37,850 nt of DNA from Burkholderiales bacterium (GTDB taxonomy: Bacteria; Pseudomonadota; Gammaproteobacteria; Burkholderiales; Burkholderiaceae_C), in NCBI GenBank assembly GCA_005789825.1, contig SXWY01000076.1:1-37850 (forward strand), written 5' to 3'. The position numbers were made by a program, and so were the translations under genes. The notes below the pieces were generated by a model that was given only the letters and a program-made list of their open reading frames with translations, ran no database searches and was not told the origin of the DNA. Positions within the stretch are counted from its first letter, which is position 1, and each line of letters opens with the position of its first letter. Shown here piece by piece: positions 1,680-15,611 of the stretch.

Positions 1680-2141
1680 ATGAGCCTTCAATTCAAAGTT
1701 AACGGTAAAACCGTTTCGTCCAACTCCGAGGCTGACACGCCTTTGCTTTGGGTCATTCGTGATGAACTCGGCCTGACCGGCACCAAATTCGGTTGTGGTG
1801 CTGCATTGTGTGGCGCTTGCACAGTGCATGTGAACGGTGAAGCAGTTCGTTCATGCCAAACGCAGGTTGGCAATGTTGCTGGCTCTAGCGTCAGCACCGT
1901 TGAAAGCCTCGGCCCAGGCACACATGCTTTGCAAAAAGCCTGGATCAAGCACCAAGTGCCCCAGTGTGGCTATTGCCAATCTGGCCAGCTCATGAGCGCA
2001 GCCGCTTTGCTGAGCAAGAACAAAAACCCATCGAACGAAGACATTGACGCTGCAATGGCAGGAAACATTTGCCGATGCGGCACTTACACACGTATTCGTG
2101 CTGCTGTCAAAGACGCTGCATCCATGATGCGCGCTGCTTAA
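1680..2141 (+). CDS. (2Fe-2S)-binding subunit of xanthine-oxidase-family Mo-hydroxylase (isoquinoline 1-oxidoreductase alpha / IorA-like)
   Basis: [20 protein letters not shown] and QCGYCQSGQ...[12 protein letters not shown] motifs of the two [2Fe-2S] domains. Confidence 0.93.
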
Positions 2142-2159
2142 TTTCAAAGGAAATACATC

Positions 2160-4301
2160 ATGATGAGCACAGAAACAAACCGTCGCGACTTCCTCAAAAC
2201 CACCAGCATCGCCACCAGTGGCTTGATGATGGGCGTGGTACTTCCTGGCACCGTGGCAGAAACCATGGCTGCAGGCACCCTGCACACGCCCAATGCGTGG
2301 GTTCACATTGCTGATGACAACAGCATCACCCTGATTTCTGCCCGTTCAGAAATGGGCCAAGGTGTTTACACCTCCATGCCCATGTTGATCGCAGAAGAGC
2401 TGAATGTTGATGTGACCAAGGTCACCGTGGCAGCAGCGCCTCCCGGTGCGGTTTATGCCAATGCTTTCCTCGGCGCCATGATCACCGGTGGTTCAACCTC
2501 CGTGCGCGAAGGCTGGGAAAAGTTGCGTATCGCAGGCGCACAAGTGCGCGAAATGTTGATCGCTGGTGCTGCTGCTGAGTGGGGCGTTCCTGCCAGCTCG
2601 GTGAAAGCAGCCAACGGCATGTTGACAGGCCCTGGCGGCAAAAAAGCCACATATGGCCAAATGGCTGAAGCGGCTTCCAAGCAGCCCGTTCCTGAGAAGC
2701 CAAGCATCAAGGCAGCCAAAGACTTCCGTGTTGTTGGCAAGCGTATTCCACGTCTTGACGTGCCCGCCAAAGTCAACGGAACTGCAGAATTCGGCATCGA
2801 CGTGAAATTGCCAGGCATGGTTTACGCCAGTTTGGAGCAATGCCCTGTCATTGGCGGTAAGGTCAAGAGTGTTGACAGCGCAGCTGCCAAAGCCATGCCC
2901 GGGGTCTTGGATGTGGTTCAACTGCCTGACGGCGTCGCTGTGGTGGCTAACACCTACTGGGCGGCAGTCAAAGCACGTCGTGCATTGAAAATCGACTGGG
3001 ACAAAGGCGAAGGTGCCAATTTATCCACAGCTTCTATGCTTGATGGTCACGTCAAGGCTGCTTCCAGCGGTAAGGTTCTTCCTATTCAGCCTCCCAAAGG
3101 TGATGCCATGGCTGCCATCAATGGCGCTGCCAAAAAGCTGTCGGCTTCTTATGTGACTCCTTTGCAATCCCACTCGCCACTCGAGCCCATGAACTTCACA
3201 GCGCATGTGACCGGTGGTAAAGCATTGTTGATTGGCCCAACCCAGTTCCAGCAAGGCGCACAAGGCGCGACTGCTGCTGCTTTGGGTATGAAGCCTGAAG
3301 ATGTCGATGTCAGAACCACTTACTTAGGTGGTGGTTTCGGTCGCCGTATTGAACTGGACTTTGTGGTGCAAGCCGCACAAATTTCTAAAGCAGTCAAGTT
3401 GCCTGTGAAATTGGTGTGGTCACGCGAAGACGACATGACCCATGATTTCTACCGACCCATGGGCTTAAATCAACTTCACGCTGGTCTGGATGCGAACGGT
3501 CAACCTGTCGGTTTGCATTTCAAGGTCACCTCACAGTCCATCACCCAGCGTGCGTTTGGTCTGCCCAAAGACACCATGGATCCATTCATGGTCGAAGCGG
3601 CTGTTGGACCTTACAACATCCCCAACACCCAGCACGACTTGGTGATCCATGACGCTGGCTTGCGTGTCGGTTACTGGCGTGCTGTGAGCCACAACATGAA
3701 CATCTTCGCCAACGAAAGCTTCGTTGATGAAATGGCCATGGCTGCTGGCAAAGATCCTGTCGAATACCGCATGTCTTTGCTTGAAGGCAAGCCCCGTTTC
3801 CAAAACGTTTTGAAATTGGCCACTGAAAAGGCTGGTTACAAAAAGGGCGCTGCCAAAGGCAATGCCATGGGTGTATCGGTCATGGAAGGTTACGACACCT
3901 ATGTGGCAATAGTTACTGAAGTGACGATGGGCGCTGATGGTGAAGTCAAGGTGGTCAAAGCCACTGTGGCAGCTGACATGGGCATGATCGTCAATCCTGA
4001 AATTGTCGAACAACAAATCCAGTCTCAAGTCATCATGGGCATGGGTCAAACCCTCAAACATGCCATCACGGTGAAAAATGGTGTTGTGGAACAAACCAAC
4101 TTCAATACCTACGCCATGGTTCGCACCAACGAGTCGCCTTTGGTCGATATCGTGCTGGTCAAGAGCGGCGAGAAGCCTGGCGGTATTGGTGAGCCTGTCA
4201 CTGCAGCAATCATCCCTGCATTGGCAAACGCTGTTGCCAAATTGACTGGCAAACGTGTTCGCTCACTGCCCATCACTGGCAACGCGATTCAGCAAGCCTG
4301 A
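2160..4301 (+). CDS. Molybdopterin-binding subunit of xanthine-oxidase-family oxidoreductase (IorB-like), Tat-exported
   Basis: NRRDFLKTTSIATSG twin-arginine signal; GGGFGRR, C-terminal GGIGEPVTAA with putative catalytic Glu; 18 nt downstream of the 2Fe-2S gene. Confidence 0.93.
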   Translation: MMSTETNRRDFLKTTSIATSGLMMGVVLPGTVAETMAAGTLHTPNAWVHIADDNSITLISARSEMGQGVYTSMPMLIAEELNVDVTKVTVAAAPPGAVYANAFLGAMITGGSTSVREGWEKLRIAGAQVREMLIAGAAAEWGVPASSVKAANGMLTGPGGKKATYGQMAEAASKQPVPEKPSIKAAKDFRVVGKRIPRLDVPAKVNGTAEFGIDVKLPGMVYASLEQCPVIGGKVKSVDSAAAKAMPGVLDVVQLPDGVAVVANTYWAAVKARRALKIDWDKGEGANLSTASMLDGHVKAASSGKVLPIQPPKGDAMAAINGAAKKLSASYVTPLQSHSPLEPMNFTAHVTGGKALLIGPTQFQQGAQGATAAALGMKPEDVDVRTTYLGGGFGRRIELDFVVQAAQISKAVKLPVKLVWSREDDMTHDFYRPMGLNQLHAGLDANGQPVGLHFKVTSQSITQRAFGLPKDTMDPFMVEAAVGPYNIPNTQHDLVIHDAGLRVGYWRAVSHNMNIFANESFVDEMAMAAGKDPVEYRMSLLEGKPRFQNVLKLATEKAGYKKGAAKGNAMGVSVMEGYDTYVAIVTEVTMGADGEVKVVKATVAADMGMIVNPEIVEQQIQSQVIMGMGQTLKHAITVKNGVVEQTNFNTYAMVRTNESPLVDIVLVKSGEKPGGIGEPVTAAIIPALANAVAKLTGKRVRSLPITGNAIQQA

Positions 4302-4398: not shown

Positions 4399-5556
4399 TC
4401 AGTTCTTTTGCACAGTCACCAAAAAGTCGACAATCGCCTTGATTTCGCTGTCGGGCAATATGCCATCCCAAGTGGGCATGCCTAAATCTGGGCGACCTTT
4501 GGTGATGGTGGTGTATGCAACGCTTTTCCACTCATCTTTGTAACGCATGCTGAGTTTGCGCAAATCGCGTTCAGAGATCGGGCTGGCACCGTTCTTACCG
4601 TGGCAATGTCCGCATTTGTTATTGAAGTTGGACTGGGCTTCGGCGATGCTGGTGCCAGTTTCTGCCACCAGCCATTCGCGGCGAGAAGGCTTGTCCGCCA
4701 CCTTGATGAAGCCTGACGAGCGGTAAGCCGGGGATTTGGCTTGCAGTGAGTCCCATCTTGCATAACGGTTTTCGGCTTGTGTGCTGTTGATCTGCAGCGG
4801 GGCTTGGGTGGGGAAACCGTATTTCTCGCTCAGTTGTTGTATTTCAGGTTTGAGATCTTCCAAGGCCTGGTTGATCTGGTCTTTGAGCAGCGGCTTTTCT
4901 TTGGAAACAGCCACCGCAACCTGACCACCCAAACTTTCACCTTGGATGGAAATCACTTGCCAGCGGTTACTGTGCTGGGTTTTGTTGTCAAAACCAGCGC
5001 TGGGGCCCCACAGCAAGGCGGCATCGATTTCTTTGCTTTGGAGAGCCGCAAAAACCTCTTCCTGAGACCGGAATGTGCTGGCGGTGAAACCCTCTTGGGT
5101 TGCCAACAAGATCTGTGGAGGAGAACCGTGCAGCACGCCGATTTTTTTGCCTTTCAGGTCTGACAAAGCCGTGATTTTCAAGCCCTGTGGCGCCACGATC
5201 GCGTAGCTGACAGACAAGAAAGCATTGCTTTTGACCAGGCCACGGACGCGGTATTGGGCATCCGCAGGCAAGGCGAAATAGGCATCACAGCCGTCCATGG
5301 TGGTTCTGAGGGCGCGGCGTTGATTGAAGGACAACCACCAGACATATTCCACAGGCGTACCCAGTCGCTTGCCCACCAACTCGGCCAATTCAATGTACAA
5401 GCCCTTGTCAGCACCTTCCGACTTGCTGAAAGGCAAGTTGTCTGGGTCCGAACATACCCTCAGCGTGTCAGCCGCTGATGCCGCAGACAAAGTGAGGGAC
5501 GCCAAAGCGGTTGCACTGACTGCAAACTTGACGATACGGGGTAACGACTTAGACAT
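4399..5556 (-). CDS. Quinoprotein-dehydrogenase-associated substrate-binding protein (MxaJ/XoxJ-like) fused to a C-terminal class I cytochrome c domain
   Basis: SBP_bac_3-like DTLRVCSDPDNLPFSKSEGADKGLYIELAELVGKRLG...; C-terminal NNKCGHCHGKNGASP (single CXXCH) and MPTWDG. Start chosen at MSKSLPRIV with signal peptide; the track ORF extends to 5622. Confidence 0.88.
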   Translation of the reverse strand: MSKSLPRIVKFAVSATALASLTLSAASAADTLRVCSDPDNLPFSKSEGADKGLYIELAELVGKRLGTPVEYVWWLSFNQRRALRTTMDGCDAYFALPADAQYRVRGLVKSNAFLSVSYAIVAPQGLKITALSDLKGKKIGVLHGSPPQILLATQEGFTASTFRSQEEVFAALQSKEIDAALLWGPSAGFDNKTQHSNRWQVISIQGESLGGQVAVAVSKEKPLLKDQINQALEDLKPEIQQLSEKYGFPTQAPLQINSTQAENRYARWDSLQAKSPAYRSSGFIKVADKPSRREWLVAETGTSIAEAQSNFNNKCGHCHGKNGASPISERDLRKLSMRYKDEWKSVAYTTITKGRPDLGMPTWDGILPDSEIKAIVDFLVTVQKN

Positions 5557-5797
5557 GGTGCAAATACTCCTGAGATTGAATGGCAAGTTTGAAAATTCTT
5601 CGATAAAAAAACAGTCAAGCAATGTTTATATTATGAGAAATCAACTGACAGCAAGCTGAATCGCTGCAGTCACTCCTTGTGCGGCAGGGCCATTTTTTCT
5701 CAAAACATAGACAAAGAAGCAAAATCAAAAAACAAGCGTTGGGGGTATGCTATTTTTTGATTTTGACTCTTGGGATGGCTTGGGCGAAGAATAAAAA

Positions 5798-5822
5798 AAC
5801 ACCGCCCGTAGGCGGTGTTTTT
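5798..5822. terminator. Intrinsic terminator downstream of the PQQ dehydrogenase gene
   Basis: AAAAAAACACCGCC-CGTA-GGCGGTGTTTTT hairpin with flanking A/T tracts. Confidence 0.88.
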
Positions 5823-5836
5823 AGACTGAATCAATC

Positions 5837-7516
5837 TCAGTTGATAGCGAACACAAACAGTGTGCCGCCTTCAGGGCTGGCAGCAACCATGCGCTCACCC
5901 ATTTTGCCGAAGAAGGCAGGCATGGACTGTGTGCGACCAGACACGACTGCGACATACTGTTTGCCATCCAAGATGTAAGTCATGGGGGCAGCAGTGATGC
6001 CTGAGCCGGTATTGAATTTCCACAGTTCTTTGCCAGTTTTGGCATCCATGGCGCGGAATGCACCTTTGATGTCACCTGCAAAGACCAGGCCAGTTGATGT
6101 GGTCATGGTGCCGCCGTTGAAAGGCAGTTCGTCCTTGTTGAACCAGACTTCTTTCTGCTTCACAGGATCCCATGCTTTCAAACCGCCGCCGTGGCCGCCA
6201 GGACCGACTTTGTCCAAGTCAAAGTTCACGCCCAAGTAGAACTGGCCGCGCTTGTACTCTTCTTGCACACCTTCCAAGTCCATGCACAGGTTGTTGGTGG
6301 GGATGTACACCAGACCTGTTTTGGGGTTGTAAGACATGGGCATCCAGTTTTTACCGCCAACCAAGTTGGGGCAAATGTCGCGGGCCCATTTTTTCAGGCG
6401 AGGACGCTTTTCGTTGTTGGCAGCTTCGATAGGCATGCCTGTTTTCAGGTCAACACCAGTGGCCCAGTTGACACCATTGATGAAAGGCTTGGCAGAGATC
6501 AATTTGCCATTGGCGCGGTCCAACACGTAGAAGAAACCGTTGCGGTTGGCTTGCATCACGACAGGCACTTTTTTGCCATCGACAGGCAGGTCAGCAAAAA
6601 CGAGTTCGTTCACGCCGACATAGTCCCAGGCGTCATGCGGTGTGAACTGGTAGTGCCACACGATGTTGCCCGTATCGGGGTTCATTGCCACCACAGAAGC
6701 GGTGTAAAGGTTGGTGAACTTGCCGATGTCGGATGAGTCGTTGCCACGAACAATCGCAGTCCAAGGACCTGGGTTGCTGGTGCCGTAGTACACGAGGTTC
6801 AATTTGGGGTCATAAGAGCCGATGAACCAGGCTGCACCGCCGCCTGTTTTGCCGGTGTCACCCTTCCAGGTGTCGGCATGCTTTTCGTTGCCCACTGGCA
6901 CAGTGTGTGTGCGCCAGACTTCCTTGCCAGTGGCTTGGTCCAATGCGACCAAAGCGCCACGCACACCGTACTCACCGCCACCGAAGCCGGTGATGACCAA
7001 GTTTTTAACCAGTGTGGGAGGTGAAGTGATGACGGAACCTTGTGTGTAGTCCACCACTTTGGATGTCCAGATTTCTTTGCCAGTCTTGGCGTCAAGTGCA
7101 GTCACTTGCGCATCGAGGCGGCCGAAGAAAATCTTGCCATCGTTGTAGGAAACACCACGGCTGTTGACGTCGCAGCAAGCGTACTGGTCAACGCCTTTGG
7201 GCATTTCAGGAGAGTATTTCCAGCGGACTTCACCGGTTTTGGCGTTCACCGCAAAAACGTTTTTAGGACCGAAGGAAGAAGTGACATACAAAGTGTCGCC
7301 CACCAAAATAGGGGTTGACTCTTGTGAGCGGTTAGTACCCAATTGCAGGGCCCATTTCACGCTCAACTTATTGACGTTTGCCGGTGTGATTTTTCCGGCA
7401 GTGCTGTAACGCTGGTTGCCCGTGTCGCCGCCATAAACCGGCCAGCTTTGTGCGCTTGCCAGAGAGGCAGCGCCCAAGGCGGCAGCCATGGCAACTGATT
7501 TGATTAAAAGTTTCAT
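5837..7516 (-). CDS. PQQ-dependent alcohol dehydrogenase (methanol/ethanol dehydrogenase family quinoprotein)
   Basis: Signal peptide, beta-propeller repeats (AKTGKEIW, DQATGKEVW), vicinal Cys pair ACCDVNSRG, GGGEYGVRG, YYGTSNPGPW, TPHDAWDYVGVNE. Confidence 0.93.
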   Translation of the reverse strand: MKLLIKSVAMAAALGAASLASAQSWPVYGGDTGNQRYSTAGKITPANVNKLSVKWALQLGTNRSQESTPILVGDTLYVTSSFGPKNVFAVNAKTGEVRWKYSPEMPKGVDQYACCDVNSRGVSYNDGKIFFGRLDAQVTALDAKTGKEIWTSKVVDYTQGSVITSPPTLVKNLVITGFGGGEYGVRGALVALDQATGKEVWRTHTVPVGNEKHADTWKGDTGKTGGGAAWFIGSYDPKLNLVYYGTSNPGPWTAIVRGNDSSDIGKFTNLYTASVVAMNPDTGNIVWHYQFTPHDAWDYVGVNELVFADLPVDGKKVPVVMQANRNGFFYVLDRANGKLISAKPFINGVNWATGVDLKTGMPIEAANNEKRPRLKKWARDICPNLVGGKNWMPMSYNPKTGLVYIPTNNLCMDLEGVQEEYKRGQFYLGVNFDLDKVGPGGHGGGLKAWDPVKQKEVWFNKDELPFNGGTMTTSTGLVFAGDIKGAFRAMDAKTGKELWKFNTGSGITAAPMTYILDGKQYVAVVSGRTQSMPAFFGKMGERMVAASPEGGTLFVFAIN

Positions 7517-7742: not shown

Positions 7743-8465
7743 TCAACGGTAAGACAGCAAGCGCATGCGCATGGTGCCGCCTTGGAATAATTTCGCGGTG
7801 GTGGGTTCGTCCCGCTCGACCTGTGCCAAACCGACGCCGGGGCAAAACCATTCACGCGACACGATAGGCGTGGGTTTGTAAGCAAATGCATCGTCGTTCC
7901 ACAGCATGATTTCCATGCTGCCATCTACACGCACGCAATGCTCAAAGTTGCCAGCAGGTGTTTGTAGGGCTGCGTCCATGTCAACCACCTTGAACACCAT
8001 GGGCAGGTCTTTGTATTTGTTCAAGTAGCGGAATTCCGCTGGCTTTTCATTGCGTCTGCGCAAAAAATACGGCACGGTGGTGTTGGTCCAAGTGCTGCCA
8101 ACTGCCAAGCCAGCAGGCAAAACCGTGCGTGCTTCGATGTCCATCACCGCCTGTTCTTTCGTCGGCGATTTCAAAGCCACACGGTGAATACCCGTGTTGT
8201 CGGTGACCAACCAATACTCATGGCCGTTGTTGCTGCGTCTGACCCAGGCTTGGCTGCCGTCGCTCAACTGGGCGCTTCCCAGGTTGCGGATCTCCAATGT
8301 GTGGCTGGTGGTTTTGGCATCTGGCGCGTCATATACCGTTTCAATTTGGTAGGTCCATTGTTTGCCAGCAGCCAAGGGAAACAGTGGATTGTCCTTGGCG
8401 GGTTGGTCGCACGCCGACAAGCAGAGCAAGGCGAATGCGCCTATGAAAGAAATGCGCAGACTCAT
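7743..8465 (-). CDS. Putative lipoprotein of unknown function
   Basis: N-terminal lipobox ISFIGAFALLCLSAC; start overlaps the upstream gene's stop by 4 nt. Confidence 0.75.
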   Translation of the reverse strand: MSLRISFIGAFALLCLSACDQPAKDNPLFPLAAGKQWTYQIETVYDAPDAKTTSHTLEIRNLGSAQLSDGSQAWVRRSNNGHEYWLVTDNTGIHRVALKSPTKEQAVMDIEARTVLPAGLAVGSTWTNTTVPYFLRRRNEKPAEFRYLNKYKDLPMVFKVVDMDAALQTPAGNFEHCVRVDGSMEIMLWNDDAFAYKPTPIVSREWFCPGVGLAQVERDEPTTAKLFQGGTMRMRLLSYR

Positions 8466-8959
8466 TTTTCAGGCACCTGTGGCGTGGGCAAATCCATGAT
8501 CTTGACTTCTTGCTCGTCGCTGCCGGGGTTGAGCCAACTGACCGCTTTGCCATTGCCCGGTTTGACTTCTGCAGTCCCCATTTGTGGCACACCTTCACGG
8601 CCTTTGCGCATGCCATCGGAAATTTGCTCGTGCAGCGTGCGGGTGTATGGCAAACGGTAAGCACGGGGTTGCAAAAAGCTTTTGCCTTCTTCAATGGGTG
8701 TGACCCACATGTACAAAGCGCCAGGGAATTTGGCACGCGGTTCGTCGATCAACGCAGCAAGCATGACAAACCGTTCAGGTAACGCGTCTGTGCTGGGTAT
8801 GCCCAGCAAGCTGTGCACCGATGAATAACCATAAAAGTAAAAACCACTGACTGCAACGGCGAGCAGTCCTTTGAGCCAGCGAGGCCAGCGCGAGTAAACC
8901 AGGGCCAATGCAAGCAGTAATGCGACGAGTGCAAACACAATGATGAGGGTCAGCGTCAT
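8462..8959 (-). CDS. Hypothetical membrane protein with two N-terminal hydrophobic segments
   Basis: LTLIIVFALVALLLALALVY and LLAVAVSGFYFYGY; 1 nt from the upstream gene. Confidence 0.7.
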   Translation of the reverse strand: MTLTLIIVFALVALLLALALVYSRWPRWLKGLLAVAVSGFYFYGYSSVHSLLGIPSTDALPERFVMLAALIDEPRAKFPGALYMWVTPIEEGKSFLQPRAYRLPYTRTLHEQISDGMRKGREGVPQMGTAEVKPGNGKAVSWLNPGSDEQEVKIMDLPTPQVPEK

Positions 8960-8960
8960 G

Positions 8961-9590
8961 TTAGAAAGACTTCACTAAAGTTTTGGGAATGGTGTTGACA
9001 TTGTCAACGCTACCGTCGGGGGTCACGGTGAAACGCGCCAAAGTGACTTCTTTGCCGCGCCCCTCTAACGTGGCTTGGCCGTAAAAAACGACTTCTGCCT
9101 TGGGATTGACTTTGATGATGGAGATATTGACCTCCACTGGCTGGCCAGCACGCGGGTCACTGCTCTCTATGTCTTTGGTTTCGTAGTAGTGGGCGTTGGC
9201 CACGTATTCACCCGGCACGATGCTGCGAATCGTGACAACTTCTTGGCGCAAGGGGTTGATGACTTTGCGACCATTGACCAAGATGGTGTTGTTGGAGGTG
9301 CCACGGTCATCTCGGTCCAAATACATCAAATCCACTTCGCGGTTGCGGAACCAAGCGCTTTCCCCGGAAGGGCCTTGCACCCACAAATCCAAATCGTTTG
9401 GGTCCATGTCTGGCCATGACAGCGTGATGATGAATTCTGCTTTCGCTGGAATATCACCTGTTTTGGTGGCTTTGGGATTCATGGCCAGCAAAGCAATGAT
9501 GAAACAAAACACAAAGGCGATCAGCATGTTGAACAACATGTCATAAAAAGGATCAACCTCGGGTTCTCGGGAAAAACGATTTTTGCGCAT
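8961..9590 (-). CDS. MotB/ExbD-like single-TM protein with DUF2135-like periplasmic domain
   Basis: VDPFYDMLFNMLIAFVFCFIIALLA resembles the MotB TM helix with ion-carrying Asp; C-terminal LSWPDMDPNDLDLWVQGPSGESAWFRNREVDLMYLDRDDRG resembles the DUF2135/YfaP pattern. Confidence 0.75.
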   Translation of the reverse strand: MRKNRFSREPEVDPFYDMLFNMLIAFVFCFIIALLAMNPKATKTGDIPAKAEFIITLSWPDMDPNDLDLWVQGPSGESAWFRNREVDLMYLDRDDRGTSNNTILVNGRKVINPLRQEVVTIRSIVPGEYVANAHYYETKDIESSDPRAGQPVEVNISIIKVNPKAEVVFYGQATLEGRGKEVTLARFTVTPDGSVDNVNTIPKTLVKSF

Positions 9591-9605
9591 GCTGTACCTG
9601 TCGCT

Positions 9606-10292
9606 TCAGCGACCGATGATCATTCCGTGCCGTTGCGCTTGTGCCAGCAATTGGTCGGCAAAACGGTCCATGCGTGTGAGTTGCAATCCCAGCAATATGT
9701 TGCCCACTAAGCCGACCATGGTGGTGAGCAAAGCCACACCCAAGCCAGAGGTGAGGTTGCGCAACAAATCTTGTGCCTGCGTAGGGTCAAAGTTTTGGAT
9801 TTGACCGATTTGCATAGCGAGCACGGAAAAGCCGATGACTTTGCCCAGCAAACCCAGCTTGAGTTGCACGCCATTGACCCACCATGCTGTGGTGTGCGGG
9901 CCATGGGTTTTCTCCATCAGCAAATCCAAAGGCGCGCCGCTGTCTTGCGGATTGGCTGCCAAGGCAGACCAGTACTCACCCGCCCAGCCTTGGGCTTGTA
10001 ACAAACCGCGTGAACCTTGAGAAGCAGCACGATCGAGCAAATCTCTTTGGTGGGCCAGTTCCTTGGAACGCATGCCGCACCACATCGTGGACACCGCAAA
10101 TATCACGATGATGACCAAGGTGATGCCGGTGGGGTCGGAGCTGATCAGCAAATGCCACACGCCTTTGATGCCGAGCAGCCAAGTTGAGAAAATAAACAAG
10201 CCAACCAAAATCAACCATTCAAACCATAACGGCTCTACTTCCCAATGGGGGTTGCTGGCCTTTAGGCGTGTAAAAAAAGATTTCAAAAGCAT
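9606..10292 (-). CDS. MotA/TolQ/ExbB-family proton channel protein
   Basis: Predicted TMs and KLGLLGKVIGFSVLAMQIGQ...LTSGLGVALLTTMVGLVGNILLGLQ, typical TolQ/MotA C-terminal region. Confidence 0.85.
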   Translation of the reverse strand: MLLKSFFTRLKASNPHWEVEPLWFEWLILVGLFIFSTWLLGIKGVWHLLISSDPTGITLVIIVIFAVSTMWCGMRSKELAHQRDLLDRAASQGSRGLLQAQGWAGEYWSALAANPQDSGAPLDLLMEKTHGPHTTAWWVNGVQLKLGLLGKVIGFSVLAMQIGQIQNFDPTQAQDLLRNLTSGLGVALLTTMVGLVGNILLGLQLTRMDRFADQLLAQAQRHGMIIGR

Positions 10293-10470: not shown

Positions 10471-11424
10471 GTGATGAAAAAGTTACATTTCTGCGTTGCT
10501 GCGTTGGTGTTTTGGAGTGTCACGGGTTCGGCCTGTTGGGCCCAGTCGCGAGCTTATGTCACCAGCGAGGGCAGTGGGACTGTGTCTGTGATCGACACGG
10601 CCACCGACACCGTGGTCTCTACCATTGACACAGGTGGCAAACCGCGCGGTTTGACGCTTTGCAAAGGTAGCCAAAAGCTGTTTGTGACAGAACAAAATTC
10701 AGCACAGCTTTGGATGATCGATACCGTCAAAGGCGAGATTGAACAACGGGTGCAATTGGGCGAATCGCCAGAAGCCGTTTATTGCTCGCCAGATGGCAAA
10801 TGGTTGGGAGTGGCCAACGAGGGAAGCAACAGCATCAGTTTCATTGACGTGAAATCCATGAAGCTCAAATTCTCCATTCCGGTGAGTGGCAAAAATCCTG
10901 AACACGGCGTTTTCAGTCCAGACGGCAAGTACATGCTGGTGTCGGCCGAAGAAGCTGATCAGGTCGATTTGATAGATATCCGCAAGCGTCGGCAAATCGG
11001 TTCCATCAAAGTCGGTGAACGGCCCCGTGGCATTGCGTTCACGCCAGACAGTAAGCGCGCATTTGTAGCGGTTGAAAGTGGCAGCATGTTGGTCGCCATT
11101 GATGTTGCCAAACGCGAAGTGGTGGGGAAACAAGCGGTCGGCAAACGCACTGCAGGCGTGATTGTGTCGCCAGATGGCGCGTATGTGTTTGCCAGTAATG
11201 GTGGTGACGCCAACGTGTCCATGGTAGACGCCAAAAGTTTTGAATTGATAGAAAACATCCCTATTGGCCAACGTCCTTGGAACATGGGCTTTAGCGCAGA
11301 TGGCAGCAAGTTGTATGTGGCAGCGGGTCGCAGTGGCGCTGTCAGCGTGATCGATTTGGCCAGTCGAAAAATGGTCTCGGAAATACCTGTCGGTAAATTG
11401 CCCTGGGGTGTCGTGGCACACTAA
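10471..11424 (+). CDS. YVTN-family beta-propeller protein (resembles the PQQ-catabolism-associated beta-propeller family)
   Basis: Repeats such as RAYVTSEGSGTVSVIDTATDTVVSTIDTGGKPRGL, KLYVAAGRSGAVSVIDLASRKMVSEIPVGKLPWGV; signal peptide. Confidence 0.88.
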   Translation: MMKKLHFCVAALVFWSVTGSACWAQSRAYVTSEGSGTVSVIDTATDTVVSTIDTGGKPRGLTLCKGSQKLFVTEQNSAQLWMIDTVKGEIEQRVQLGESPEAVYCSPDGKWLGVANEGSNSISFIDVKSMKLKFSIPVSGKNPEHGVFSPDGKYMLVSAEEADQVDLIDIRKRRQIGSIKVGERPRGIAFTPDSKRAFVAVESGSMLVAIDVAKREVVGKQAVGKRTAGVIVSPDGAYVFASNGGDANVSMVDAKSFELIENIPIGQRPWNMGFSADGSKLYVAAGRSGAVSVIDLASRKMVSEIPVGKLPWGVVAH

Positions 11425-13304: not shown

Positions 13305-15611
13305 TTAAATCACCTTGAAACCATGGGTACCGTCCTTGCGGAGTTGCTCAACCAAGGCTTGTCCTCCATCCAAATAGGCTTGCAAGGCCTGGGCAGAATG
13401 GTCTGACACTTCATGCGGGCGGCGGTAGGTGTCGATTCGGGGGCTGGCCACATAAGACTCGCCTTGTTGTGTGCTGAAACCTTGGGCCATCCAATGGGCG
13501 TTGCCGCCGGGCAACCAATACACCTCAATGCCTGACCTGACCAATGGCTGCAATTCAGCCACTGCATAACGCGATGCCATCCCGTCATCGCAGGTCAGTA
13601 CATAGCGGTTGGCTTTGTGTACCCGGGTGAAATCTTGCGTCAATTGCGAGCGCAACAGCCACCATGCGCCAGGAATATGCTTTTTGACATAGTGGCTGCT
13701 GTCGCCTACATCAATGACCAGGCTCAGGTTGGTGCGGTTGGCCAGCCAAGCTTTGAGCGTTGCTGGATCGACTTCTTTGACAGGCTCGACGGTAGCGGGC
13801 AAATTGGGTGTGGGTATTTCAGTCTCGGTGAACTGCGAAGTTGAAACATCTTTGAGCACATAAGTTTCCCAGCCCATTTGTGCCAGCCATGAAGCGGCCA
13901 TGCAGCCACGCACACCATCGCTGTCATAAACCACCACGCGTGCGCCGCGCACGGCCAGGTAACGGTCGGTTGCATGGACCAACTGTCCACCGGGGGCGCT
14001 GATCGCGCCCGGCAAATGGCCCAGAGCATACTCAGGCGGCGTACGCACATCCAACACAAAGGTGGTGCGATTCGCGTCCGCTTGCATCTGTTGCAACTCT
14101 TGCTTGTCGATGCGTTTGACACCGGCACGAAACAGCAATGCCAACGCCGAAGCCGCAGTTTTTTTTCTGTCCTCTTCGGCGTATTTGCCATAGGTTTGTT
14201 GCGCTTTGGCGGTCAGTTCAAAACCAGCCAATTGCCATCCGATGGTGCCATGGCGCAGGGCACACACTGGGTTGGGAATGCCTGCGTTAATGAGCGATTG
14301 CGCGGCGAGGATGCTGCGGGTGCGCCCGTCGCAACAAACCACAATACGGGTGGTGGCACTCGGTGCCAACGTGCGGGCATGCAACACCAATTCACCGCCA
14401 GGCACATGAACAGCGCCGGGAACTGTCATGGTGTGGTACTGGTCAAACTGTCTCACATCCCACAGCACCATGTCAGCACCGCTGTCCATCAGCGCTTTGA
14501 CTTCTGGGGCAGAAAAAGAAGGGGTTTTGCGTTGTGCCTCGACCCATTCGGCAAACGCTTTGCTGGGCAGGTTCACATCGCTGAACAATTCACCACCAGC
14601 GGCCGCCCAACCCGCCAAACCGTTTTGAAAAATGCGGACATCGCTGTAGCCGATACGCTGAAACAGTTGCGCCGCACGTACCGACAAACCCTCTCCGTTA
14701 TCGAACAACACCAAGGGCGTGTCGCGCCGGGGAATGCGTTGCCAGGCGTCGGTTTCAATCCGGCCCAATGGCAGCTGAATGGCAAACAGGGGATGGCTTT
14801 GTGCATAAGCATGTTCCTCGCGGACATCAACCAATGCCATTTCTTGTTTATCCAGCAACGCCTGTTTGACCTCGGTGTATGTCGACAGCCTGAAACGATG
14901 GTCGGCTGTTGCCGTTGTTGAAACCAAGGGTTCGGCGTCGTGAAGTGGTGTGCGCGCTGTAATGGTTGGTGGGGCTGTGGCAGCAGCAGGCAAAACCGCA
15001 GTCGCTGTGAGTTGCTGCGCCGTATTGGCAATGGGCATGCCAGGTAAATTGGCATAAGCTTGGACAAACACATGGCGCGAACCGTCTTCTCGGTAAAAGT
15101 GTCTGGTTGTCTCGCCAATATTCCCTTGGTAGACCTCGATACATACACAGGCTTGGTCAGGCATTGGATTCCAAACTTTGTGCACGTCACCGATGCGCGG
15201 CGACACCGCTTCAATATCTCCGGGCACCATGTCTATTTGAAAGCCAGCAGGTACCCATCTGCCATCGGACATTTTGCTGAATGGCTGGCAGGATGTCTTG
15301 CCACGCAAAACCCCGCTCAGTCCCCACACGGTATGGTCGTGGATGGGCATGCTTTGAGCGGCGCCGTACACCATGCTCACCACGCTGAAACGCTTAGCGG
15401 GATCTGCGTAAATCAAATAAAGCTGTGGATGGTGAGAATGCGCTTGCGACAATTCCGGGTGCAGCCAATCATCATGGGCCAACAGCGGCACCATCAATTG
15501 CCGTGCTTGCGTCATCAGTTCGTCTTCAGCGGGGGAGAGCTCAACCAACCGGGTCATCTCGGCCAGAAACTGGTGCAGTCTTTGACTCTGGGGCTTGCTA
15601 GCTTCGTACAT
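13305..15611 (-). CDS. Thiol-dioxygenase-like cupin (cysteine dioxygenase / 3-mercaptopropionate dioxygenase type) fused to four rhodanese-like domains
   Basis: PIHDHTVWGLSGVLRGKTSCQPF...GDVHKVWNP (HxH...H metal ligands); four rhodanese domains, recognised by VDVREEHAYAQSH, WDVRQFDQYHTM, LDVRTPPEYALGHLPGA, IDVGDSSHYVKKHIPGA. Confidence 0.9.
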   Translation of the reverse strand: MYEASKPQSQRLHQFLAEMTRLVELSPAEDELMTQARQLMVPLLAHDDWLHPELSQAHSHHPQLYLIYADPAKRFSVVSMVYGAAQSMPIHDHTVWGLSGVLRGKTSCQPFSKMSDGRWVPAGFQIDMVPGDIEAVSPRIGDVHKVWNPMPDQACVCIEVYQGNIGETTRHFYREDGSRHVFVQAYANLPGMPIANTAQQLTATAVLPAAATAPPTITARTPLHDAEPLVSTTATADHRFRLSTYTEVKQALLDKQEMALVDVREEHAYAQSHPLFAIQLPLGRIETDAWQRIPRRDTPLVLFDNGEGLSVRAAQLFQRIGYSDVRIFQNGLAGWAAAGGELFSDVNLPSKAFAEWVEAQRKTPSFSAPEVKALMDSGADMVLWDVRQFDQYHTMTVPGAVHVPGGELVLHARTLAPSATTRIVVCCDGRTRSILAAQSLINAGIPNPVCALRHGTIGWQLAGFELTAKAQQTYGKYAEEDRKKTAASALALLFRAGVKRIDKQELQQMQADANRTTFVLDVRTPPEYALGHLPGAISAPGGQLVHATDRYLAVRGARVVVYDSDGVRGCMAASWLAQMGWETYVLKDVSTSQFTETEIPTPNLPATVEPVKEVDPATLKAWLANRTNLSLVIDVGDSSHYVKKHIPGAWWLLRSQLTQDFTRVHKANRYVLTCDDGMASRYAVAELQPLVRSGIEVYWLPGGNAHWMAQGFSTQQGESYVASPRIDTYRRPHEVSDHSAQALQAYLDGGQALVEQLRKDGTHGFKVI

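Follow-up and report, generated by a model that had tools for sequence, protein, structure and literature searches.

The TolQR, ExbBD and MotAB complexes are ion-driven motors of the 5:2 type (PMC9389320). The known roles of 5:2 motors are motility, nutrient import, outer-membrane stability and phage defence. Many undescribed non-flagellar stator variants are reported in two surveys (PMC12505986, PMC12204202), and one of them (PMC12505986) deals with generic ion transporters with DUF appendages, that is, non-flagellar stators carrying varied extra domains. In lanthanide transport, growth of P. putida at nanomolar lanthanide requires PedA1A2BC (PMC6839425, PMC12997753).

The four-gene operon A-B-C-D described here resembles TolQR/ExbBD/MotAB in the TM3-TM4 signature of A, in the single-TM partner with a conserved Asp and in the adjacency of the two genes. 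However, B carries a DUF2135-like domain without an ExbD/TolR or OmpA domain, there is an extra core subunit C, the Burkholderiales members have Lys at the TM3 Thr, and the operon is without TonB/TolA. In the survey of DUF appendages, DUF3450 and DUF2341 are named on A subunits, while the B/DUF2135 type and the quinoprotein context were not found in its accessible sections (PMC12505986). As with the vWA force transducers encoded beside tolQR-like genes (PMC12204202), one group here has a VWA protein (with FHA) next to A-B-C, but the clade of the window has a DUF3108-like lipoprotein instead, and B is not a vWA protein. Genes of the PedA1A2BC/Lut type of lanthanide transport share neighbourhoods with the operon in Burkholderiales as well as in a single distant genome; that system, however, is an ABC transporter, and stator-type genes were not found in the accessible parts of its descriptions (PMC6839425, PMC7391723). 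E. coli YfaP (DUF2135) has a homologous periplasmic domain but, unlike B, has no stator helix, and its gene adjoins yfaQ, yfaS, yfaT and yfaA. A literature search found no paper on DUF2135, and a search of largely open-access journal papers found no published description of the A-B-C-D motor. The operon is a real and conserved variant of the stator class, and apparently an undescribed one.

The window is the whole stretch of DNA analysed, 37,850 nucleotides long. The genes of the operon and its flanks are as follows (evidence in brackets):

9606..10292, minus strand: gene A, channel protein of MotA/TolQ/ExbB type, 228 aa, four hydrophobic segments (ORF, PF01618, hydropathy)
8961..9590, minus strand: gene B, TolR/ExbD-like TM helix plus periplasmic DUF2135-like domain, 209 aa (ORF, ortholog alignment, AF2, hhalign)
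8462..8959, minus strand: gene C, 165 aa, TM helices 2-22 and 27-52, small alpha/beta domain, C-terminal 'LP..PEK' motif (ORF, alignment, AF2)
7743..8465, minus strand: gene D, lipoprotein of a DUF3108-like family, 240 aa, lipobox Cys19 at 8409-8411 (ORF, PF21347, alignment)
5837..7516, minus strand: PQQ-dependent alcohol dehydrogenase, downstream of D after a gap of 226 nt (TIGR03075, 1.1e-192)
5795..5822, minus strand: likely terminator behind the dehydrogenase, a 12-bp stem with a T-run (pattern scan)
4399..5622, minus strand: MoxJ-like periplasmic binding protein fused to cytochrome c (TIGR03871, 1.7e-30, sub-threshold; Cytochrome_CBB3, 1.5e-9)
10471..11424, plus strand: PQQ-catabolism beta-propeller (PedA2-like), upstream of and divergent from gene A (TIGR03866, 8.7e-64, below the curated cut-off)

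The initial annotation had described four tightly spaced minus-strand genes lying between a quinoprotein dehydrogenase and its beta-propeller, and both parts of this description are borne out: the ORF coordinates put A and B 15 nt apart and B and C 1 nt apart, C and D overlap by 4 nt, and the two flanking genes are recognised by TIGR03075 and, below its cut-off, by TIGR03866. The pattern scan found no terminator-like site on the minus strand between D and the dehydrogenase, and there is a strong stem-loop with a T-run behind the dehydrogenase, so it is plausible that A-B-C-D and the dehydrogenase form a five-gene unit. Elsewhere in the window, positions 1-1413 hold the end of a gene that clusters with TonB-dependent receptors, positions 1680-4301 hold a two-subunit pair of molybdenum hydroxylase/aldehyde oxidase type near the alcohol dehydrogenase, and positions 13305-15611 encode a 768-aa protein with several rhodanese-type domains (matches at about 247-345, 365-460, 485-582 and 627-711).

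Gene A of the window scores slightly below the threshold of Pfam MotA_ExbB (PF01618; 19.8 vs 22.9 bits), and the family is matched by 38 of the 39 aligned A orthologs, the best at 8e-12. G147, G150, G154, G183, A187, T190 and T191 are invariant in the alignment, the last two being a Thr-Thr pair in TM4. Two features of A are of particular use below:

9690..9869, minus strand: A residues 142-201, channel-forming TM3-TM4 region 'LKLGLLGKVIGF...GLGVALLTTMVGL' (A ortholog alignment)
9840..9842, minus strand: A codon 151, encoding Lys; in other clades the TM3 Thr of GLLGTVIGF (residue table)

Similarity of A to the channel protein of the Zorya defence system was also considered. A shows generic ZorA similarity only (in the window, E no better than 0.0085), and B, C and D gave no match to the Zorya partners ZorB and ZorC/D/E; a Zorya identity was therefore rejected.

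Gene B supplies the second half of the stator-like pair proposed in the initial annotation, whose quoted helix is present together with Asp17. Its features are:

9480..9551, minus strand: B residues 14-37, single TM helix (AF2, hydropathy)
9540..9542, minus strand: B codon 17, candidate ion-carrying Asp in DPFxDLLFN (ortholog residue table)
9021..9440, minus strand: B residues 51-190, DUF2135-like beta domain (hhalign, AF2 strands)

The AF2 model of B consists of the TM helix and an all-beta periplasmic domain (mean pLDDT 86), and not of the ordinary ExbD/OmpA-like fold that would have spoken against a DUF2135-like replacement. In profile-profile comparison with hhalign, B aligned with DUF2135/YfaP (PF09906; E. 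coli YfaP is among the DUF2135 proteins) at a probability of 95.8% and E of 7.7e-9 over 111 columns, while the controls stayed at or below 0.9% and the reversed control reached 0.5%. With the DUF2135 profile alone, 10 of 45 B orthologs matched weakly, one ortholog exceeded the Pfam curated cut-off, and the window copy by itself gave no match; in the opposite direction, the B profile recovered the DUF2135 protein of one genome (G623) at 1.8e-8. Among the same 45 orthologs, the ExbD/TolR domain (PF02472) was absent at E up to 1 and the OmpA-family C-terminal domain was not matched. Foldseek with the B model found no confident solved relative, and a PDB sequence search run beside the Foldseek searches of the B and C models returned nothing below E 0.2. 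Judged from these profiles, the periplasmic domain of B is a divergent DUF2135/YfaP domain, as the initial annotation had held.

The ion path of this pair may deviate from that of its relatives. Lys151 occurs in every tabulated A of Burkholderiales type, the window included (80 rows, some loci being fetched twice), and elsewhere the residue is Thr, taken here as the equivalent of the channel Thr of ExbB/TolQ; ion conduction may be altered or blocked by the Lys. In B, position 17 is where ExbD/TolR have their Asp, and 143 of 150 rows show Asp there; the other 7, which come from four genomes, show Ala. In these four genomes (G151, G193, G273 and G306), Asp13 is kept, and each fetched locus holds two copies of C. 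Given the Lys in A and the losses of Asp17 in B, some members may conduct ions in an altered way or no longer at all. A related reading is that the complex is a non-conducting or sensory stator derivative, in which Lys151 pairs with Asp17 and the whole acts as a sensor of the PMF or of a ligand; the Thr-to-Lys change in all Burkholderiales-type copies and the Asp17-to-Ala change in four other genomes would fit it, but every Lys-bearing copy keeps Asp17 and most other clades retain both Thr and Asp, and we consider it quite improbable.

The two remaining genes had been announced as a two-TM protein and a lipoprotein, and they prove to be so. AF2 models C as a two-helix protein with a small domain; no Pfam family exceeded its cut-off on C, and Foldseek with the C model gave no confident fold match. 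The lipobox Cys19 of D is invariant in 24 of 24 orthologs, of which 22 match PF21347 (DUF3108-like; best 3e-8). No TonB/TolA family was found among the orthologs of C and D.

A-B-C(-D) is kept far beyond chance: it recurs throughout Burkholderiales, in further orders of the class and in a single distant family of the same phylum. B was found in 14 of 61 relatives and, in the class, in 31 of 274 genomes by single-sequence search and in 32 by profile, the additional one being weak; it also occurs in a family from another part of the phylum, whose genomes measure 6-9 Mb. C goes with A-B in all but the most divergent members. That is to say, the expected co-occurrence of the genes holds widely, but the conserved set is not the four genes named at first: the core is A-B-C, and D is clade-specific, a VWA-FHA protein taking its place in another group. 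The B tree, in which several inner forks are weakly supported, places the members with the D lipoprotein (including that of the window) largely together, next to a VWA-FHA-linked set, a group of six that for the most part have no PQQ-ADH, and a remote outgroup. Among cultivated bacteria, carriers are found in Ideonella, Azohydromonas, Sphaerotilus, Curvibacter and Methylibium. A MAG titled Bordetella parapertussis (L054) and a Hyphomicrobiaceae MAG (L105) hold Burkholderiales-type copies; these two titles look doubtful, and the MAGs may be mislabelled or misbinned.

The VWA-linked loci usually run YkuD-like, DUF302 lipoprotein, A, B, C and VWA-FHA, and the sizes and order of the flanking genes resemble those of tilS, accA, dnaE and rnhB; three of these loci are preceded by PedC-related genes of the ABC-2 transporter kind, which score below the PedC family cut-off. 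One of them (L144:7084-11601), with a VWA-FHA membrane protein, A-B-C, a YkuD L,D-transpeptidase-like gene and a DUF302 lipoprotein, is a possible motor-driven VWA transducer. In two reduced genomes of about 1 Mb (G202 and G315, loci L140 and L142), A-B and a short C-like gene stand between fumarase-type and aconitase genes, and no strong PQQ-ADH is present.

The operon stands in a quinoprotein context in most of its Burkholderiales carriers. Among 66 loci with names and a length of 9 kb or more, nearly all of them from Burkholderiales, 63 have a quinoprotein marker (PQQ-ADH, PedA1, PedA2, PedB, PedC, PedF, MoxJ, PqqB and others) within about 10 kb; among 34 other loci, 12 do. The typical Burkholderiales order is PqqB, ABC ATPase (TIGR03864), PedA2 (TIGR03866), PedA1 (TIGR03863), the permease PedC (TIGR03861) and A-B-C-D, the operon following directly behind these four TIGR genes (ABC transporter families of the PQQ-ADH system) in many of the genomes. 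Genes of this kind are what PedA1A2BC consists of. In a distant genome of the phylum, A-B-C lies near MoxJ, a quinoprotein-relay hydrolase, a SoxYZ-like carrier, PedB and PedC; at three further loci of that distant family no such marker was found. At the genome level, with a hand-set threshold of about 1e-50 for a strong PQQ-ADH, 23 of the 31 B-positive genomes have the enzyme, against 28 of the 243 B-negative ones (p=4e-13); for the genus of the window the figures are 12 of 12 against 6 of 25 (p=1e-5). Both tests ignore shared ancestry. Eight B-positive genomes, two of them of about 1 Mb, are without any strong PQQ-ADH, and the VWA-group loci are placed elsewhere in the genome, which was counted against a quinoprotein role. 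Methanotrophy was rejected as the link, since pmoA-type genes occur in only one tested B-positive genome and MxaI in two.

These exceptions bear on the idea of a general envelope-maintenance motor, similar to Tol-Pal and merely near quinoprotein genes in some lineages. The YkuD L,D-transpeptidase-like gene, DUF302 lipoprotein and VWA-FHA protein adjoining the VWA-group loci, a PBP1b-like gene one gene further on from one copy without PQQ-ADH, the retention of A-B in the two genomes of about 1 Mb without strong PQQ-ADH and the yfaQ, yfaS, yfaT and yfaA neighbours of E. coli YfaP would all suit such a motor; what it leaves unaccounted for is the strong co-occurrence with PQQ-ADH even at the genome level and the synteny at 63/66 Burkholderiales loci, and on balance it is unlikely, if deserving of serious attention.

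Whether the dehydrogenases concerned use a lanthanide or calcium was judged from the Asp two residues past the catalytic Asp (WD[YF]DG), which we assume to be the mark of lanthanide-type enzymes. Of 28 dehydrogenases encoded near the operon, 24 have this Asp, and genome-wide the strict motif is found in 17 of 31 B-positive vs 12 of 243 B-negative genomes (p=2e-11). Among the genomes with a strong PQQ-ADH read, the numbers become 17 of 22 vs 12 of 25 (p=0.07), and 12 B-negative genomes carry a lanthanide-type dehydrogenase without the operon. Since the difference falls to that level once PQQ-ADH genomes alone are compared, the link of the operon to quinoproteins is solid, and that to lanthanide-type dehydrogenases only suggestive. 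The dehydrogenase of the window itself reads WDYVGVNE, with Val (codon GTC, 6617-6619) at the lanthanide position, and a 97% identical dehydrogenase in a relative (L045) has Asp there; the Val is either a real variant or an assembly error. In Methylomicrobium alcaliphilum, two 'MotA/TolQ/ExbB' genes, MEALZ_3990/3991, are La-repressed together with mxa (PMC6277846). They were dropped as support for the same system, because the B profile, run on 151 genomes from the order to which the pmoA-positive G196 belongs, gave no match. This absence, together with the 12 B-negative genomes, counts against a lanthanide-linked role of the operon.

Comparison of sequences establishes the conservation of the genes, the family assignment of A, B and D, the synteny and the co-occurrence. 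As to function, with moderate confidence we favour A-B-C-D as a PMF-driven envelope motor of 5:2 type serving quinoprotein, often lanthanide-type, alcohol oxidation. It would be an inner-membrane motor of the TolQR/ExbBD/MotAB superfamily, in which five A subunits would form the channel and two B helices with Asp17 the axle, and which would be driven by protons. The axle would extend the DUF2135-like beta domain into the periplasm in place of a peptidoglycan-binding domain, and C, with its two TM helices and periplasmic domain, and the lipoprotein D may transmit or take up the force. The DUF2135 head, C and D would then act on a periplasmic or outer-membrane partner, which in the clade of the window would come from the alcohol-oxidising quinoprotein system, the motor working beside PedA1A2BC-like lanthanide transport. 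The effector, called unknown in the initial annotation, is narrowed by gene context only as far as this PQQ/lanthanide alcohol dehydrogenase system; the same context suggests that the step energised is most likely periplasmic or outer-membrane handling, such as delivery of metal or PQQ, or maturation of the dehydrogenase.

Two more specific proposals can be set beside this motor. It is unlikely that the complex is a dedicated proton-driven machine that loads or moves the lanthanide (or PQQ) for quinoprotein dehydrogenases. The favoured explanation also has a narrower form, in which the operon is the dedicated energiser of outer-membrane lanthanide or PQQ import, similar to ExbBD but without TonB; it draws on the adjoining PedA1A2BC-type genes and on the TonB-dependent receptors near several loci; these receptors are not constant neighbours, however, and a TonB/TolA-like transducer is absent from the operon, so we regard it as rather unlikely.

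The class would be extended by an additional widespread 5:2 motor whose periplasmic head differs. The link with PQQ and lanthanide-type dehydrogenases makes this motor a testable candidate for the envelope handling of these enzymes, their metal or their cofactor, and for some organisms it is not yet settled how the outer membrane is crossed (PMC12997753). Since cultivated carriers exist, genetics is feasible. A lanthanide/PQQ-loading machine, if true, would be an energised step of lanthanide biology absent from the literature examined. In many bacteria whose alcohol oxidation relies on PQQ enzymes, often those of the rare-earth-metal type, the motor probably powers a cell-envelope step of alcohol oxidation.
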